A stretch of DNA of 64,000 nucleotides from NCBI RefSeq assembly GCF_003385185.1, contig NZ_PQHZ01000009.1, positions 124,001 to 188,000 of the forward strand, written 5' to 3'. The DNA comes from Amycolatopsis palatopharyngis. GTDB lineage: Bacteria; Actinomycetota; Actinomycetes; Mycobacteriales; Pseudonocardiaceae. The notes below the pieces were generated by a model, which saw nothing but the letters and a program-made list of their open reading frames with translations, was not told the DNA's origin and did not search any database. Shown in pieces: positions 9,296 to 21,504 of this stretch. Position 1 is the stretch's first letter; every line of letters starts with the position of its first letter. A program made the translations under genes and the position numbers.

Positions 9296-9645
9296 TCGGT
9301 CCGCGGCCCCGCACGTCCTCGGCTTTGTCGTTGGAAGCACCGAAATGACCCGAAGAGCGGCTTGACAGGAGCGGGAGGTTTCCGAGTCTGCCGACTCTCG
9401 AGTAACCACCGGCACGCAGCACTGATCACTTTTAGTGAAGTTAACGCACACTGTGTGTTCTTCACACGATCGTGCAGTCAAGTCGCGTCGAGCGTGCGGG
9501 AAGGGCTGGCAGTTTGCCAATGTCTGTGGTGCGCCAACGGAAAGCGCATCGGTAGACCATCCTCAGCGAAGATCAACTCGGGTAGTTGCGGTCAAGCGCG
9601 TCCAAGCGCGAACGGGCACCCACAGACACGCACGGCAGGAGCACA
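9296..9645. promoter_or_regulatory. Divergent intergenic region with two small inverted repeats
   Basis: 350 bases between the divergent permease operon and the acidic-protein gene. Two small symmetrical motifs occur here: TCACTTTTAGTGA (9426-9438, a 5-3-5 inverted repeat) and CACACTGTGTG (9447-9457, 5-1-5). They lie about 200 bases upstream of the rightward gene in a locally AT-richer patch. They could be operators for the surface-protein locus to the right. I do not recognise the cognate regulator. Confidence 0.35.
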
Positions 9646-10800
9646 GTGGAGACGGTGGCAGCGACCGAGGGGTGGCGCGGGCGACGCGCTGGCCGTTGGT
9701 GCTCCCGTTTTCTCCTGGTTCTCGGCGGAGCGGTCGCGGGCACCGCCGCCGCATGGGCCGTCACCACCTCTGGTGCCGCCGCGTCGACTGAGCCCGACGA
9801 CAACCTGATCACCAACATCGCTGCCGAGGTGCGCAGCCACACCACCGACTCGGATTCGGACACCCGGGACAAGGACGCAACCGCTGCTTCGGCCAGCCCG
9901 GCCACCGACGCCGTCGTCGAGGGCGCTGACGAGCTGACCTCCGGTGCCACCGACGCAGGTGCGGACGTACTGGCCCAGGCCTGCGACGGCCCGGTTGTCC
10001 CGCGCGAAGCCGATGACGCCTCGCAGGACCGCCGCGAGGCGCGCGACATCAGCGAAACCAGCGATGCCAGCGATGCCAGCGAAACCAGCGATGCCAGCGA
10101 CATCAGCGAGGTCACGGAGGCCACCACCACAGCCGCCGGCGAGGTGCGCACCGCGATCTGCGATTTCACCGAGCGTTCCGCGGCGCAGTCGGCGCACCGG
10201 CTGCTCAACTCGGTCGAGCAGGTCGTTCGCGATCCCAGGGAGACCCGGAGCGTCGTCGAGCGCACGCTGACTCCCTCTCAGGAAGTTCAGGACTTCGCCC
10301 ACAACGTGCTTGGGATGCTCCACCCCAGGACCGGTGGCGACCTGATCGACCAACTCCCCGCGCTCCCCGCGCTTCCGGGTGACGGCTCCGGCCAGCCCGC
10401 ATCGCCGGCACCGGACCAGGTTGCTCCCGAGCACACCTCCTCCGGAACCGGCTCCCCCGAAATCTTCACGGTCGAGATTCCCCCGGCCGCACTCGACGCC
10501 ATCGGCTCAGCCGTTGACGTCCGGCACTCCATCGGTGACTCCGCTGACGACGCGCGGGGTACCGGGGACGACCGTGAGGGCAAGACACCGGTTCAGCCGG
10601 TGCGAATTCCGCTGGCACCGATCACTGCGCCCACCGTTCCCGGTGGCACGCACGGTGGTGGCCACTTGGACGGCACGACGTTCGGCGTTCCCGCCGGCGC
10701 GTACGCCGCTTCCGACGACATCGTGATCGGCGAGATCCGGTCCGGTATGCGTCACCTGCAGGTCAGCCCGGGCTCTCAGCCCGGCGTGACGCCTGACTGA
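9646..10800 (+). CDS. Anchored acidic Ser/Asp/Glu-repeat protein, unknown function
   Basis: A 384-residue protein of unknown function. A short basic N-terminus is followed by a hydrophobic segment (residues about 21-45, LLVLGGAVAGTAAAWAVTTS), either a signal anchor or an uncleaved signal peptide. The rest is exported, acidic and low in complexity. It includes a run of Ser-Asp/Glu triplets around bases 10044-10111 (SETSDASDASETSDASDISE) encoded by near-identical 9-base units. Two Cys (QACDGP and AICDF) lie about 60 residues apart. The C-terminal third is Pro/Gly-rich. The GTG at 9646 is chosen over the in-frame TTG at 9586 because AGGAG lies 6 bases before it. It is tandem with the giant chaplin-like gene 200 bases downstream and may belong to the same cell-surface programme. 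Confidence 0.75.
   Translation: METVAATEGWRGRRAGRWCSRFLLVLGGAVAGTAAAWAVTTSGAAASTEPDDNLITNIAAEVRSHTTDSDSDTRDKDATAASASPATDAVVEGADELTSGATDAGADVLAQACDGPVVPREADDASQDRREARDISETSDASDASETSDASDISEVTEATTTAAGEVRTAICDFTERSAAQSAHRLLNSVEQVVRDPRETRSVVERTLTPSQEVQDFAHNVLGMLHPRTGGDLIDQLPALPALPGDGSGQPASPAPDQVAPEHTSSGTGSPEIFTVEIPPAALDAIGSAVDVRHSIGDSADDARGTGDDREGKTPVQPVRIPLAPITAPTVPGGTHGGGHLDGTTFGVPAGAYAASDDIVIGEIRSGMRHLQVSPGSQPGVTPD
10044..10111 (+). repeat. Short in-gene tandem repeat coding for Ser-x-Asp/Glu units
   Basis: About seven units of nine bases, close to AGCGATGCC or AGCGAAACC, in frame inside the acidic-protein gene. Codons stay intact, so copy-number change would lengthen or shorten an acidic surface segment without a frameshift. 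Confidence 0.7.
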
Positions 10801-11001
10801 TTCACCTCTCCCGGGGTAGCTGACGCACCCCACTGCCCGGCACCTTCGTGTCCCGGCTCGTGCGTCTTCGGCTCCCCGGCATCTCCCCAGCGGTCCGCGT
10901 ATCCACGCGTCCGCCTCATCCCCACCCCGGGTGCTTGGCGCCACTGCTCGAGCACCCCCATATAGCCCGCAAGGGAAACCAAGGAAAAGGAGAACCTGCT
11001 A

Positions 11002-13899
11002 ATGCAGACCTGGGCGAAGCGTGGACTACAGACCGCGCTGGTCACGGGTGGTTTGTTGATGCTCGGTACGGGCATCGCATCTGCCGATGAGAACGTCAAC
11101 CCGGACAGCCCTGCTGGCCCGCTGGACCTGAACGTCAACGTTCCGGTCCAGATTGACGACAACGCGGTCGGAACTCCCCTGGGGCAGATCAACACCCCTG
11201 GGTTCGAGGGCGAAATCAGCACCGACCCCATCACCGAGCCGCTGCGGGACGCCGCTGAATCGACTTCCACCGCAGGCGACGTGGCCAACGTCGCCTCGAC
11301 CGTCGAGTCGCGGACCACGCAGGACGGCGTTTCGGGTGGCTCGTTCGAGCAGACCGAGGACGCTTACAAGGGCAACAAGATCGACGGTGACCTCACGGTC
11401 CCGATCCAGATCTGCGGCAACGCGCTCGGCGTCATCGATGACGCATCGGTCGAGGGCGCCGACTGTGTTCAGACCTACGAGAACCACGAAGACACCACCA
11501 CCGACGGCGAGAACTCCGGCCTCGCCGGCAACGCCGTCGTGCTGGACTGGGCCCTGCCCGTGCAGATCGCCGGTAACGCGGGCGGCCTCGCAGGCGGCAG
11601 CGGATACGCCTCCGGTACCGCCACCCAGGAAGTCACCGAGACCGGCAACATCACCACCGACGGCGCAGGCTCCGGGGCCTCCGGCAACGTGGTCGCCGGC
11701 CAGTTCGCGACCCCGGTTCAGGTCACCGGCAACGCCGCGTCCTGGATCCTGGCGAACGCCTACAGCGACTTCGACGCCGAGACCGAAGCCGAGTCCGGTG
11801 GCTGGATCAAGACCGACGGTGAGGGTGGCTCCGCCAGCGGCAACGTCGTCGGCGCCCCGATCGCCCTGCCGGTGAAGTTCAACGGCAACGCCGCGGGCGC
11901 ATGGGGATCGGACGCCGACTCCGTGTCCAGCTCCTCGGCCGAGGCCGAGGCGAGCAACGAGGGCACGCCTGGCATCAACGGCATCCCCAGCTACATCCAG
12001 ACCGGTGGCGACGAGTCGTTCCTCGCCGGGAACATCGCGCAGCCGCAGGGTGCGCTGGTGGCCAACGTCGCGGGCAACGCGGCATCCTGGATCGGCAACG
12101 CCACAACCGGCAACGCACTGGGTGACGGCGCCGCCGGAACCTCCACCAGCGAGGTCGAGGCAGGCGGGTTCTCCAGCACCTCCGGCCAGAACTCCGGTGG
12201 GTCGGGCAACATCGCCGATGTCCCGGTCGGCCTGCCCGCCGAGGTCTTCGGCGTCGGTGGCACCTACATCGGTAACTCGCACGCCTCGCACGACGTGGTG
12301 ACCGACGCGACCGCTGGCGATGGCACCTACACCAACGGCGACGGCTCCGGGCTGGGTGGCAACAGCGTGCACGCGCCGCTGTCGCTGGCCCCCGAGGTCT
12401 TCGGCATCGGTGGCTCGCACATCGGTAACGCCTCGGGCACCGCGACCGAGGAGAAGACGGTCACCACTGGTGGCTACAACGGCACCAGGGGCAACGACTC
12501 CACCGTCGGTGGCAACCTGGTGCAGGTCCCGGCCGCCATCCCGGTCGAGGTCTTCGGCATCGGTGGCTCCTACATCGGCCAGGGCACGGGCACGGCCGCC
12601 GAGACCAAGCGGATCAAGGCAGGCGGCCCGGGCAACACCGAGGACGACGACGCTCTGGGTAGCTCCAACCTGGTCGCGACGCCGCTGTCGGTGCCGGTCC
12701 AGCTCTTCGGCATCGGTGGCTCGCACATCGGCCGTGGCGTCGGTGTCGCCTCGTCCGACACGATCACCGAGGCGGGCGGTGACCTGCACGCCAGCGGCAA
12801 GGAGGCAGGCGCCTCCGGCAACATCGGCACGGTCCCCGTGGCCCTGCCGGTGCAGCTGCACGGCATCGGCGGTTCCTTCATCGGGACCGGGCACGGCACC
12901 AGCGCGAACCTGACCGACTCGATCGCGGGCGGCGACGCCAGCACCGACGGCCAGGAAGGCGCGGTCTCCGGCAACGTCATCCAGGCGCCCGTCGCGGGTG
13001 CGGCCAGCGTGTTCGGTTCGGCAGCCAGCTGGATCGGGCTCGTCGGTGGCGAGAGCACCAACGACATCGTGGCCGTTGCCGGTGGCGACACCGAGACCAA
13101 CGGTGACGGTGGCGGGCTGGCCGGCAACGTGGTCAGCGCACAGGGGCTGCCCATCGCCCAGGTCTTCGGCGACGCCGCTGCCCTGATGGCGAAGGCATCG
13201 GGCGAGGCGACCAACTCGACCGACATCACCTCCGGTGGCGACATCGAGACCTCGGCCGTCGAAGGCGGGTTCTCGGGCAACATCCTCGACGTGCCGGCCG
13301 CTGCGGTCGTGCAGGTCTTCGGAAACGCGGCCGCGGCACTCGGAGTCGCGGACGCCGAGGGGCACAACGTCACCTTCGGTGAGGTCGGTGGCGAGACCAC
13401 GACCGGGCCGGAGGACGTCCAGAGCTTCTCGGGCATCGATGGTCAGCTGCCCATCGGCGCGCTGGTGCAGATCTACGACGTGCCGCTCGAGCTGCTCGGC
13501 CGCGCGACCACTGAGGCCAGCAACCTGACCGACATCTCGGTCGCCGGTGAGGAGCCGCAGTTCGACCTGCCGATCGACGGTGCAGAGCTGCCCGCCGACT
13601 CGCTGCCCAGCCTGCCCAACATGGACAGCCTGCGCTCGATGGACGGCCTGCCCCTCGGTGGATCGGTCGCCCGTTCGGACGCACCGAGCCTGCCGCAGGT
13701 GAACACGCTGCCGGTCGAGCTGCTGCCCTCGGGCCTCGCGCCGCAGACGGACCTCGGCAACCTGCCCTCGATGGACGTGACCGGCCTGGCCCCGAAGGCC
13801 GATCTGCCCGCGATGGCGGAGCTGGACAACGGCCCGCTGAGCGTGTTCGAGGAACTGCTGGCCGAGCTGTCCGACAGGTCGGTCAACATCCAGGGCTGA
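11002..13899 (+). CDS. Giant secreted chaplin-like repeat protein
   Basis: A 965-residue secreted protein. Residues 1-28 are a signal peptide (hydrophobic core LVTGGLLMLGTGIASA, then DEN). From residue about 124 it is made of 14 tandem units whose first GN codon recurs at 11371, 11527, 11683, 11839, 12028, 12205, 12358, 12511, 12664, 12817, 12970, 13123, 13276 and (degenerate) 13432. The spacing is 51 or 52 residues except for two longer linkers. Each unit reads roughly (S/A/G)GN-hydrophobic-P-x-P-V-x-V-x-G-x-x-x-x-(I/L)G, the pattern of the chaplin domain of streptomycete aerial hyphae. Only unit 1 keeps the two chaplin cysteines (ICGNALGV to GADC, 17 residues apart). The last 100 residues are Leu/Pro-rich without a sorting signal. 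AAGGAG lies 9 bases before the ATG. A surface or rodlet role is inferred. Confidence 0.8.
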   Translation: MQTWAKRGLQTALVTGGLLMLGTGIASADENVNPDSPAGPLDLNVNVPVQIDDNAVGTPLGQINTPGFEGEISTDPITEPLRDAAESTSTAGDVANVASTVESRTTQDGVSGGSFEQTEDAYKGNKIDGDLTVPIQICGNALGVIDDASVEGADCVQTYENHEDTTTDGENSGLAGNAVVLDWALPVQIAGNAGGLAGGSGYASGTATQEVTETGNITTDGAGSGASGNVVAGQFATPVQVTGNAASWILANAYSDFDAETEAESGGWIKTDGEGGSASGNVVGAPIALPVKFNGNAAGAWGSDADSVSSSSAEAEASNEGTPGINGIPSYIQTGGDESFLAGNIAQPQGALVANVAGNAASWIGNATTGNALGDGAAGTSTSEVEAGGFSSTSGQNSGGSGNIADVPVGLPAEVFGVGGTYIGNSHASHDVVTDATAGDGTYTNGDGSGLGGNSVHAPLSLAPEVFGIGGSHIGNASGTATEEKTVTTGGYNGTRGNDSTVGGNLVQVPAAIPVEVFGIGGSYIGQGTGTAAETKRIKAGGPGNTEDDDALGSSNLVATPLSVPVQLFGIGGSHIGRGVGVASSDTITEAGGDLHASGKEAGASGNIGTVPVALPVQLHGIGGSFIGTGHGTSANLTDSIAGGDASTDGQEGAVSGNVIQAPVAGAASVFGSAASWIGLVGGESTNDIVAVAGGDTETNGDGGGLAGNVVSAQGLPIAQVFGDAAALMAKASGEATNSTDITSGGDIETSAVEGGFSGNILDVPAAAVVQVFGNAAAALGVADAEGHNVTFGEVGGETTTGPEDVQSFSGIDGQLPIGALVQIYDVPLELLGRATTEASNLTDISVAGEEPQFDLPIDGAELPADSLPSLPNMDSLRSMDGLPLGGSVARSDAPSLPQVNTLPVELLPSGLAPQTDLGNLPSMDVTGLAPKADLPAMAELDNGPLSVFEELLAELSDRSVNIQG
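11371..13500 (+). repeat. Array of 14 chaplin-like coding units, 153-156 base period
   Basis: Distances between successive GN-codon anchors are 156, 156, 156, 189, 177, then seven times exactly 153, then 156 bases. The DNA of the units has clearly diverged (no long identical runs), so the array is old and maintained by selection on the protein rather than recently amplified. Confidence 0.85.
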
Positions 13900-14866: not shown

Positions 14867-16108
14867 TTACCCGATCCAGTCCGCGGGCAGGCTACCGAGG
14901 CGCATCCGCTGCGGGTGATCGCCGACGCCGACGGCCGCGACCTCCTTGCCGGTCGCGTAGGAGATCGCCGAGATCCTGTCGTCGCCGCTCCACGAGACGA
15001 AGCAGTGCCTGCCGTCGCCGCTCGGGGTCGCCCAGTACGGCTTGGTCCCGGTGCTGACCAGTTCCTTGTGCCGGAGCGTCCGCGGCGACACGATCGTCGC
15101 GTAGTCCGACATCGTTCCCGCCACGCAGAGCGCGGTGCCCTGTGGGTTCATCGCGATCCCGTGGTGGGCGGAGTCCAGGAGGTACTGCTCGCGAGGCATG
15201 TCCTGGACGTGCTCGGCGATCGGCAGGTTGGCCACCCTGGTGACCCGGTCCGCTTCGAGGTCGTACTCGACGAAGCCGTGGAAGAAGGAGACCTGGAAGT
15301 AGACGAAACGCTCGTCGGTGGAGAACGTCATCGGCCGGACCGCGGAACTCATGTCCGGATAGCCCGCCTCCGCGAGCTTCTTGCCCATGTCGATCCTGCG
15401 GACCACCTCGTTCGAGTCGCGATCGACCACCTGGAAGTACCGCTCCCCCTTTGTCGTGTCCAGCCACGGCCGGTCGAGCGGGGTGTAGACCGTGCCGATG
15501 CTGGCGTGGAAGATGCGTTCGCCGTCGCCGGAGTAGACGTTCTCGTGCGGTGAGTCACCGGAGGGGAAGCGGCCCACCTCGGTGCCGGTCTCGATGTCGA
15601 GGATGTGCACGACATTGCCGGTCGAAGCGGATACCGCGACCTGGCTGCCGTCGGGTGAGACCGCCATATGATCGGACCGCTGACCATCGACCTGAAAGCG
15701 CCACACGAGCCGGCCACTGTTCACGTCGATAGCGACCACGTCGGCGAGACTCGGCCGGGAGACCACGAGGGTCCGCGCGTCCGGGCTGCTGTACATATCG
15801 TCTACGAACTGGTCGTGGCCTTCGCCGATGAGCGCTCGAATGCCGAGGAAGTAGGCCAGCCGGACCGGGTTGAGGTAGATCTCCTGCATCCGCTCGCGGA
15901 TGTCCGGGATGACGTTGATCCTGCCCAGCTTGTCGAGACTGCCGTCGGGGGCGGGCGATATGACGTCCACGGTGCCGTCCCAGTTGTTGCCGACGAACAG
16001 CACCTCCTGGGTTCCGGGGGGCTCCGGTATCGCCTGCGCGGGCGACACCACGACGCAGGTGAGTGCGAGGGTGGCCAGAATGGCAGCTGCCCGCTTCTTC
16101 GTGAGCAT
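14867..16108 (-). CDS. Secreted YVTN-type beta-propeller protein
   Basis: A 413-residue exported protein. The first 26 residues are a signal peptide (basic MLTKKR, hydrophobic core, SPAQA cleavage site). The mature part has the repeated blade pattern of seven-bladed YVTN/WD-like propellers, for example VAIDVNSGRLVWRF, MAVSPDGSQVAVSASTG, VHILDIETGTEVGRF, GIAMNPQGTALCVAGT and ISYATGKEVAAV. No catalytic motif can be identified; such proteins often act as surface binding scaffolds. The ATG at 16108 has AAGGGA 6 bases upstream. An inverted repeat about 20 bases upstream could be its operator. It is transcribed alone, between the dioxygenase and dnaB. Confidence 0.8.
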   Translation of the reverse strand: MLTKKRAAAILATLALTCVVVSPAQAIPEPPGTQEVLFVGNNWDGTVDVISPAPDGSLDKLGRINVIPDIRERMQEIYLNPVRLAYFLGIRALIGEGHDQFVDDMYSSPDARTLVVSRPSLADVVAIDVNSGRLVWRFQVDGQRSDHMAVSPDGSQVAVSASTGNVVHILDIETGTEVGRFPSGDSPHENVYSGDGERIFHASIGTVYTPLDRPWLDTTKGERYFQVVDRDSNEVVRRIDMGKKLAEAGYPDMSSAVRPMTFSTDERFVYFQVSFFHGFVEYDLEADRVTRVANLPIAEHVQDMPREQYLLDSAHHGIAMNPQGTALCVAGTMSDYATIVSPRTLRHKELVSTGTKPYWATPSGDGRHCFVSWSGDDRISAISYATGKEVAAVGVGDHPQRMRLGSLPADWIG

Positions 16109-20130: not shown

Positions 20131-21504
20131 CTACTCGCCGATCACCGGGGGCGCGGTCAGCTCGTCGCTGCCGAACAGTGAGTTCGGATCCTCCTCGACG
20201 AGGAACTTGGACTGGTGCTCCTCGTCCTCGCCACCCTTGCCGCCACGGGCGCCGCCGCCCATCATGCCGCCCATTCCGCCCATCATGCCGCGACCACCCG
20301 CGCCACCGCCGACAGCGCCGCCACGGGCACCGCCGGCCCCGCCCGCACCGGATCCAGATCCCGCACCCGGCGCTACCGACCCGGTGCCTCCGCCGGGGCC
20401 GAAGCCCGCCGCGCCAGGGCCAAAGCCGCCCGCGCCGCCGGGCCCGAAGCCGCGCGCAGCGCCGCCACCCGCGCCGATGCCACCCGCGGAGCCAGGGGTG
20501 TAACCGCCCCCGCCACCACCACCCCGAGGTAGATCAGCCGCGGGAATGCTGCCGGGTTTGTAGCCGGATGCGTTGGTGCCGTCGTCCCATTCGGGAATCT
20601 GCCCCGGCCGGTAACCGCCGCCGCCGGGTGCGTTGTCGCCCGGCCTGTAGCCACCCCCACCCGGCAGGTCACCGTAGCCACCGCCGCCGGGGATCTGGCC
20701 GGGGCCGTAGCCCCCGCTTCCGCCACCGCCGATACCGCCCCCGCCGCCGCCCGGGATGTTCCCCGGCTGGTAACCGCCGCCCCCGCCGCCACCGGGGATC
20801 TGGCCGGGGGTGTAGCCGCCACCGCCACCACCGTCGCGATCGCCGCCCCCGCCGTCGCGATCTGCGCCGTCCTTGTCGCCGCCACTGCCGTCGCCGTCGA
20901 CCTCGATACTGCCGAACTCGCCGTCCACCTCGCTGTAGGTGGGCATCCCGCTGGCGTTCTCGTTGCTCGCCTCGAAGTACGTGTTGAACGCGTCGACGTT
21001 GGCCTGCGCTTTGGTGTTGTAGTCCTTGATCGCCCTGTCGGTATCGGTCTCCCAGGGCGTGATGTCGTTCAGGAAGCCGCTGTCCGGCGGCTGCTGCGGA
21101 ATCGGCTCCACCCGCGAGTGGACGGTGGTGAAGGCGTTGCGCTGCTCGCCGAGATAGGTGTCGCTGTCCTTCAGCTTGTCCCGGGAGTCCTCCATCCAGA
21201 CCTTCAGCGGATGTGCGCCCGAGTTCGCCGCGTCACCGGCCTTGCCCTGCCAGGCCGCGTCCATATCCCTGGACAGGTCCTCGATGGTGTGCACCCGTTG
21301 CTCGTAGGTCCCCTTCAACCGGCCCGCGGCCTGCTGGCCGTCACTGATCGAGCCGACGCCGGGACCGGAGGTGATCTGCTCCCAGATCTGGTACGCGTCG
21401 ATCCTGCGCTCGCCGTCGCCAGCCGCGTACTGCCCAGCCTCGTCCTGTGTGGCCGCACCGTACGTAGCCGCTCCGACGACGATGGGAATGAGGAAGAATG
21501 GCAT
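20131..21504 (-). CDS. WXG100-like protein with long glycine-rich tail, ESX-substrate type
   Basis: A 457-residue protein. The first 20 residues are hydrophobic (FFLIPIVVGAATYGAA). Residues about 40-180 are helical and contain a WXG-type turn (MDAAWQGKAGDAA), like the helical hairpin of WXG100/PPE substrates. From about residue 190 to 420 it is mostly Gly with repeated YxPGxIPGGG units, each centred on Y-x-P-G. It ends with a non-Gly tail, SKFLVEEDPNSLFGSDELTA. The sequence fits an ESX-exported surface protein, by analogy with the Gly-rich tails of mycobacterial PE-PGRS/PPE proteins. It follows the DUF3558 gene by 6 bases and precedes the EspG-like gene. The exact function is unknown. Confidence 0.75.
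   Translation of the reverse strand: MPFFLIPIVVGAATYGAATQDEAGQYAAGDGERRIDAYQIWEQITSGPGVGSISDGQQAAGRLKGTYEQRVHTIEDLSRDMDAAWQGKAGDAANSGAHPLKVWMEDSRDKLKDSDTYLGEQRNAFTTVHSRVEPIPQQPPDSGFLNDITPWETDTDRAIKDYNTKAQANVDAFNTYFEASNENASGMPTYSEVDGEFGSIEVDGDGSGGDKDGADRDGGGGDRDGGGGGGYTPGQIPGGGGGGGYQPGNIPGGGGGGIGGGGSGGYGPGQIPGGGGYGDLPGGGGYRPGDNAPGGGGYRPGQIPEWDDGTNASGYKPGSIPAADLPRGGGGGGGYTPGSAGGIGAGGGAARGFGPGGAGGFGPGAAGFGPGGGTGSVAPGAGSGSGAGGAGGARGGAVGGGAGGRGMMGGMGGMMGGGARGGKGGEDEEHQSKFLVEEDPNSLFGSDELTAPPVIGE

Follow-up and report, generated by a model that had tools for sequence, protein, structure and literature searches.

Can the chaplin domain, which occurs once or twice per protein in Streptomyces coelicolor (available text of PMC5618241), be built many times over into one secreted chain, and what would such a chain do? 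The question is raised by an open reading frame (ORF) at 11002-13899 (+) in a 64,000-nucleotide stretch of Amycolatopsis palatopharyngis DNA (contig NZ_PQHZ01000009.1, positions 124,001 to 188,000; hereafter the window, in whose coordinates positions are given). The encoded protein of 965 residues begins with a signal peptide, recognized by eye, and a half unit; after a linker come 14 units (residues 124-861) and then a Leu-Pro-rich tail. Residues 1-28 have the composition of a Sec-type signal, as judged by eye, with cleavage near A28-D29, which agrees with the secreted location given in the original prediction for this locus. By sequence criteria the relation of the protein to chaplins holds, and its units are predicted to stack into a single beta-solenoid.

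The unit anchors fall at residues 124, 176, 228, 280, 343, 402, 453, 504, 555, 606, 657, 708, 759 and 811 (bases 11371 to 13432), with spacings of 52, 52, 52, 63 and 59 residues, seven of 51, and a last one of 52. A recount reproduces exactly the 14 units, the anchors and the seven consecutive spacings of 153 bases first reported. Autocorrelation scored with BLOSUM62 over residues 120-830 has maxima at lags 51 (0.814) and 102 (0.571); the best lag of any of 1000 shuffles reached -0.214, far below the lag-51 signal, and chance periodicity was rejected on this evidence. A further, weak half unit at about residue 42 scores 5.6 bits with a profile made from the units (the unit profile). Compared without gaps over their first 30 residues, the units share about 31% identity, and the repeat is therefore old. 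Tandem Repeats Finder reports no array across the 14 units, only an 18-base array in the tail (13608-13662). Four orthologues were tested: for loci L053 and L098, all 14 window units have the orthologous unit as their best match, and for L112 and L119, 11 of 14 do. Diverged units that mostly find their own counterparts led us to reject a recent tandem expansion.

The evidence for chaplin ancestry comes from several searches. A Pfam scan of the whole protein at E<=1 returned ChpA-C (PF03777) at 35.1 bits, where the curated cut-off is 21, and no other family; among 20 orthologues scanned at E<=0.01, 17 matched ChpA-C and none matched any other family. NCBIfam gave no match to the protein at E<=1, nor to the 20 orthologues at E<=0.01. 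A home-made chaplin profile, for which 27 strong chaplin domains from class-level genomes were used, scored 46.2 bits against the whole protein, 2.6 against the reversed sequence and at best 8.2 against 100 shuffles. With the same profile, 9 of the 14 units score above the best shuffled unit (8.3 bits; 6052 of 7000 shuffled units were returned, and 948 were not). Profile-profile comparison of units with chaplins gave a probability of 96%, and 60 column shuffles gave at most 24%. In the in-register alignment, the chaplin core SGNVVQVPVHVPVNVCGNTVNVIG matches GGNLVQVPAAIPVEVFGIGGSYIG of unit 8. The first GN is present in 13 of the 14 units; the second position is G in 13 but N in 6, and the third GN is lost, so the units do not show the three GN motifs by which the chaplin domain is defined (available text of PMC13251363). 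Taken with the bridging protein described below, these results uphold the chaplin relation that had been proposed from the GN..P..V..GN pattern. Cut out singly, nine of the 14 units match ChpA-C at E<=10, with unit 12 matching out of register, and four (units 1, 4, 8 and 13) fall below E 0.01, but none of the 14 exceeds the Pfam cut-off alone. The layout is as follows, with E-values for units scanned alone.

11002-13899 (+): 14-unit chaplin-like secreted protein, 965 residues (ORF, Pfam, repeat analysis)
11002-11085 (+): Sec-type signal peptide, residues 1-28 (by eye; nearly invariant in 30 same-genus proteins)
11122-11220 (+): N-terminal half unit or cap, residues 41-73 (predicted strands 41-73; 5.6 bits)
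11371-11526 (+): unit 1, bearing C138 and C155; ChpA-C, E=0.0012
11527-11682 (+): unit 2; no Pfam match
11683-11838 (+): unit 3; ChpA-C, E=0.085
11839-12027 (+): unit 4, 63 residues with an insertion; ChpA-C, E=0.00099
12028-12204 (+): unit 5, 59 residues; weak DUF7265 match only, E=0.097
12205-12357 (+): unit 6; ChpA-C, E=0.039
12358-12510 (+): unit 7; no Pfam match
12511-12663 (+): unit 8; ChpA-C, E=0.00047
12664-12816 (+): unit 9; no Pfam match
12817-12969 (+): unit 10; ChpA-C, E=0.016
12970-13122 (+): unit 11; ChpA-C, E=0.014
13123-13275 (+): unit 12; weak, out-of-register ChpA-C match, E=0.2
13276-13431 (+): unit 13; ChpA-C, E=0.0029
13432-13584 (+): unit 14, degenerate, C-terminal rung; no Pfam match
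13585-13899 (+): Leu-Pro-rich tail, mostly low confidence with a short predicted helix at its end (AlphaFold2, AF2); no sortase signal or transmembrane-like stretch by simple script

The host genome (7.0 Mb in 131 contigs, completeness 100, contamination 6.49) has ten PF03777 matches at E<=10, nine of them within the chaplin-like gene and the tenth at 12.3 bits. As judged from sequence, the 14-unit gene is its sole credible chaplin locus. At E<=0.001 the PF03777 genome search found no match anywhere, controls included, probably since single stretches are scored; looser searches also matched E. coli and other control genomes, below the cut-off.

Genomes of the wider order and class contain ORFs, read stop to stop, of 384-719 residues with 4-10 chaplin units by the chaplin profile and 4-12 by the unit profile (examples are L031, L037, L158 and L172). 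L169 and L171 were left out of this set as lying in the wrong frame; L033 was kept, matches neither profile and is probably also in the wrong frame, a 133-residue frame there having a 31.4-bit PF03777 match. Since other Actinobacteria also have chaplin proteins of 4-10 or more units, many units per chain are not unique to the window family, and the one-or-two-domain rule assumed at the outset stands for S. coelicolor but not for these other families. Most of their proteins have several cysteines, and L172 has none. A simple script found a sortase-type end in 5 of the 11 multi-unit ORFs and missed that of L037 (LPYTG), seen by eye. L031, a 719-residue ORF from another family of the same order, has no fewer than 10 chaplin units, most of them containing cysteines, and terminates in a sortase-type sequence. 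It matches both the chaplin profile (1.2e-58) and the unit profile (5.9e-51), and therefore bridges the window family and chaplins. By eye, the window protein has a leader similar to those of L031, L037 and L049, and a polar spacer similar to that of L031 (TDG.GS..GN). The L031 genome encodes a second multi-unit ORF, of 521 residues.

The same script, with its one known miss (L037), found a C-terminal transmembrane-like stretch or sortase end in none of 80 window-family proteins (that of the window and 79 others, of which L090 runs off its contig), and sortase anchoring was rejected on this count. The two domains and C-terminal sortase signal that mark the long chaplins (ChpA-C) are likewise not those of the window protein, with its 14 units and, by script, no signal. 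What is distinctive is the nearly cysteine-free 14-unit form lacking a sortase signal. A literature search by title and start of abstract, with subscription journals mostly outside its reach, found no many-unit chaplin for this group.

For the full protein, AF2 predicts one confident beta-solenoid (mean predicted local distance difference test score, pLDDT, 84.8; predicted template modelling score, pTM, 0.81). Units 6-10 alone (93.9 and 0.85) fold like the full model, predicted strands lie at equal offsets in units 1-3, and the tail beyond residue 879 is mostly of low confidence. As a prediction, the single-chain beta stack originally suggested is borne out. The nearest solved folds include curli CsgA, antigen 43, Vag8 and EtpA, with CsgA giving the best Z for the full model (12.3, rmsd 8.5); Foldseek E-values for the predicted fold were not significant. 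An autotransporter-like beta-helix had been named as a fold that would speak against chaplins, and such folds are indeed near (antigen 43, Vag8), next to the amyloid CsgA; a beta-solenoid is compatible with chaplin ancestry. A CsgA fibril chain, with its five repeats, aligns over its whole length of 111 residues with five units, and the full model covers 336 residues of a large CsgA with about 13.7 units. Each unit apparently forms one rung in the models. Searching by sequence for a relative of solved structure gave nothing below E=0.05.

Within a unit, two halves differ in composition. Over the 10 regular units of 78 aligned sequences, offsets 0-22 have a mean hydropathy of +0.75 with 4.1% charged residues, and offsets 23-50 a mean of -0.57 with 16.9% charged. 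Offset 1 is Asn in 93%, as expected of an asparagine ladder.

C138 and C155, 17 residues apart in unit 1, are the sole cysteines of the window protein, exactly as first described. Chaplins have two cysteines per domain, except in ChpE and in the second domain of ChpB (available text of PMC13251363 and PMC5618241); in the window protein, 1 of 14 units has them. The 78-row alignment (which leaves out L102, of 788 residues, and the incomplete L090) contains 83 within-unit cysteine pairs, of which 81 lie at offsets 14-15 and 26-31 and two at other offsets. Depending on species, the pairs occupy units 1, 4, 5, 6 or 7, where numbers 5-7 in some orthologues may be alignment-shifted. A further 13 single cysteines lie in units of 12 proteins, L100 has two outside its units, and 14 of the 78 proteins have no cysteine at all. 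The N-terminal redox-controlled cap that had been suggested is rejected, given the differing location of the pair and the cysteine-free members. The pattern fits a disulfide staple within a rung, its position shifting in evolution.

The protein occurs in all 36 same-genus genomes examined, that of the window included, where it is the one match at E<=1. Twenty-eight genomes have one match and eight have more, some of these short and leader-only. Second long copies are seen in genomes G012 and G027, the former with an internal stop. Elsewhere in the order, 1 of 24 genomes has a weak match. In the family, with four first-look candidates scored per genome, matches at E<=1e-10 occur in 115 of 200 genomes and 29 of 46 genera; named relatives include Amycolatopsis, Prauserella, Saccharomonospora, Thermocrispum, Saccharothrix, Lentzea, Actinosynnema and Actinokineospora. 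Among the 85 family genomes without it, 20 were searched for PF03777 at E<=0.01: 15 had no match, and 5 had weak matches in frames of 135-207 residues. For comparison, the best 80 of 163 relatives were kept and 79 loci read; these were found through two leader peptide patterns, which miss relatives with other leaders. The unit profile counts 14 units in 66 of the 80 proteins, 15 in 11, and 16, 13 and 11 in one each, the window protein counting as 15 since the half unit is scored too; a spacing of 51 is the most frequent (540 cases). Leaders are generally more variable than the mature protein. In 30 same-genus loci found with the whole protein, from which leader invariance was taken, the signal peptide is almost invariant, though overall identity among most of these proteins is just 52-70%.

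Two further features precede the gene.

9586-10800 (+): conserved upstream partner with a signal-like hydrophobic segment, ending QPGVTPD (10777-10797); longest ORF, true start uncertain
10965-10994 (+): conserved leader element with CCCGCAAGGG (CCCGCAAGGGAA), then a ribosome-binding site, before the chaplin-like gene (20 sequences)

At 71 of 80 loci, a gene encoding a protein with the C-terminal tag QPG[VI][TN]PD stops 145-221 bases before the chaplin-like start; whole-protein tblastn finds the upstream protein at 49 of 79. Its body is variable, 24 examples have a signal-like hydrophobic segment (one by eye only), and the protein at 9586-10800 is probably secreted and disordered. It has no Pfam or NCBIfam match. 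Searched as a DNA pattern in 20 genomes, the tag is present as a single copy in all 12 same-genus genomes and absent from the other 8, and a reversed-pattern control found none; L057 has an extra copy 2492 bases away. Across 71 tags the codons CAG, GAC and TGA never vary while others do, and therefore both peptide and DNA may be constrained. By eye, the tag DNA contains an inverted repeat, CCGGGCT...AGCCCGG. Rfam gave no match in the window at gathering score, nor in 10600-11200 at E<=1, and a known riboswitch before the chaplin-like gene was rejected on this basis. Of 79 loci, 76 have a gene for an AI-2E family transporter as the next one upstream, and 52 have a LigB-type dioxygenase gene on the downstream side. 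Elsewhere in the window, 14867-16108 (-) encodes a beta-propeller-like protein with a signal-like start, with no relative at E<=1e-8 in flanks of up to 6 kb around the 79 orthologues, and 20254-20932 holds several overlapping tandem repeats inside an ORF at 20131-21504 (-).

What might such a protein do? We give an even chance to a secreted poly-chaplin, a rung-stacked solenoid forming an amphipathic rod that serves as film or sheath at the hyphal surface or the air-water interface. Fourteen chaplin-derived units would be joined in one secreted chain, each most likely one rung of a long predicted beta-solenoid. The chaplin half of the rung (GN-V-V-x-x-P-x-x-x-P-V-x-V-F-G...I-G) is hydrophobic, with hardly any charged residues, the other half is polar (T, S, D, G), and in-register stacking would yield one hydrophobic and one polar stripe, plus an asparagine ladder at the turn. 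One covalent chain would then do the work of the many small amyloid-assembling chaplins of Streptomyces, and the tail and the tagged upstream partner may retain the rod at the wall. Beyond the homology, repeat, conservation and neighbouring gene pair established above, we infer a link to aerial growth. The most likely role is that of surface coat or its scaffold, because of the homology, the secretion, the two-faced unit and the lack of any other credible chaplin in the genome; a hydrophobic sheath is plausible. It is rather doubtful that the protein is, more specifically, a pre-assembled covalent chaplin amyloid whose 14-rung, two-stripe solenoid, with the tagged partner, is the sheath or nucleator of Amycolatopsis-type bacteria.

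Adhesion is the main rival to the coat role. A chaplin-derived, soluble or wall-bound beta-helical rod could be an adhesin or matrix scaffold that sticks to surfaces or cells and forms no hydrophobic film; retention of the hydrophobic, charge-poor half across the 78 aligned proteins argues against this, and we hold it to be unlikely while keeping it in contention. We think it improbable that the solenoid is an AF2 artefact and the units, as beads on a string, form ordinary cross-beta fibrils between chains. AF2 does have a known solenoid bias on repeat sequences (available text of PMC11795689) and short chaplins are amyloid (available text of PMC5618241), but the diverged units, their positional identity kept in orthologues and the strict spacing suit a fixed stack, and the five-unit segment folds alike in AF2. 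That this is a glycine- and asparagine-rich secreted repeat resembling chaplins by chance or convergence, as the simple pattern and the single units below the Pfam cut-off might suggest, is very improbable and already largely refuted by the in-register match, by chaplin-profile and profile-profile results far above their controls, and by the transitive link through L031.

Bacteria of this group form aerial hyphae, and the 14-unit family is a candidate for their missing coat protein. In the available text of a 2013 survey that took in about 100 actinobacterial genomes, among them those of Amycolatopsis mediterranei, Saccharomonospora viridis, Saccharopolyspora erythraea and Actinosynnema mirum, the chaplin passage names chaplin-like genes in several other genera and in none of those four (PMC4255298). 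Because a PDB sequence search using a single chaplin core turned up no chaplin structure, a long single-chain chaplin rod amenable to expression and imaging would also make the chaplin-unit fold, and a role of the GN motifs as an asparagine ladder, directly testable. Were the protein a pre-assembled covalent chaplin amyloid, it would offer a tractable monomeric model of chaplin-unit folding inside the rodlet.

Besides the multi-unit chaplin proteins above, three known systems bear comparison. Curli CsgA shares the predicted in-register stacking with one repeat per rung in the models; curlin repeats are about half as long as the 51-residue unit, and no curli family is among the Pfam matches of the window protein. 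The autotransporter-type antigen 43 and Vag8 and the two-partner adhesin EtpA are likewise long beta-helical rods among the nearest folds. The window protein differs from autotransporters in having no outer-membrane transport domain or C-terminal beta-barrel translocator, Pfam giving ChpA-C only, and its host group lacks an outer membrane of autotransporter type. A further comparison is with the Streptomyces chaplins ChpA-H. They have 1-2 units where this protein has 14, and about 55-225 residues (available text of PMC5618241) where it has 965; its 51-residue period includes an extra polar half, the third GN is lost, cysteines are confined to 1 of 14 units, and there is no sortase signal. The likenesses lie in the unit itself. 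The core GN-V-V-Q-x-P-x-x-x-P-V-x-V-C/F-G is in register with the units, and the first GN and second G are 15 residues apart in both. In the orthologues, 81 of 83 cysteine pairs start at offset 14-15, matching position 14 of chaplins, with the second cysteine 11-17 residues after the first, compared with 18 in the chaplin core.
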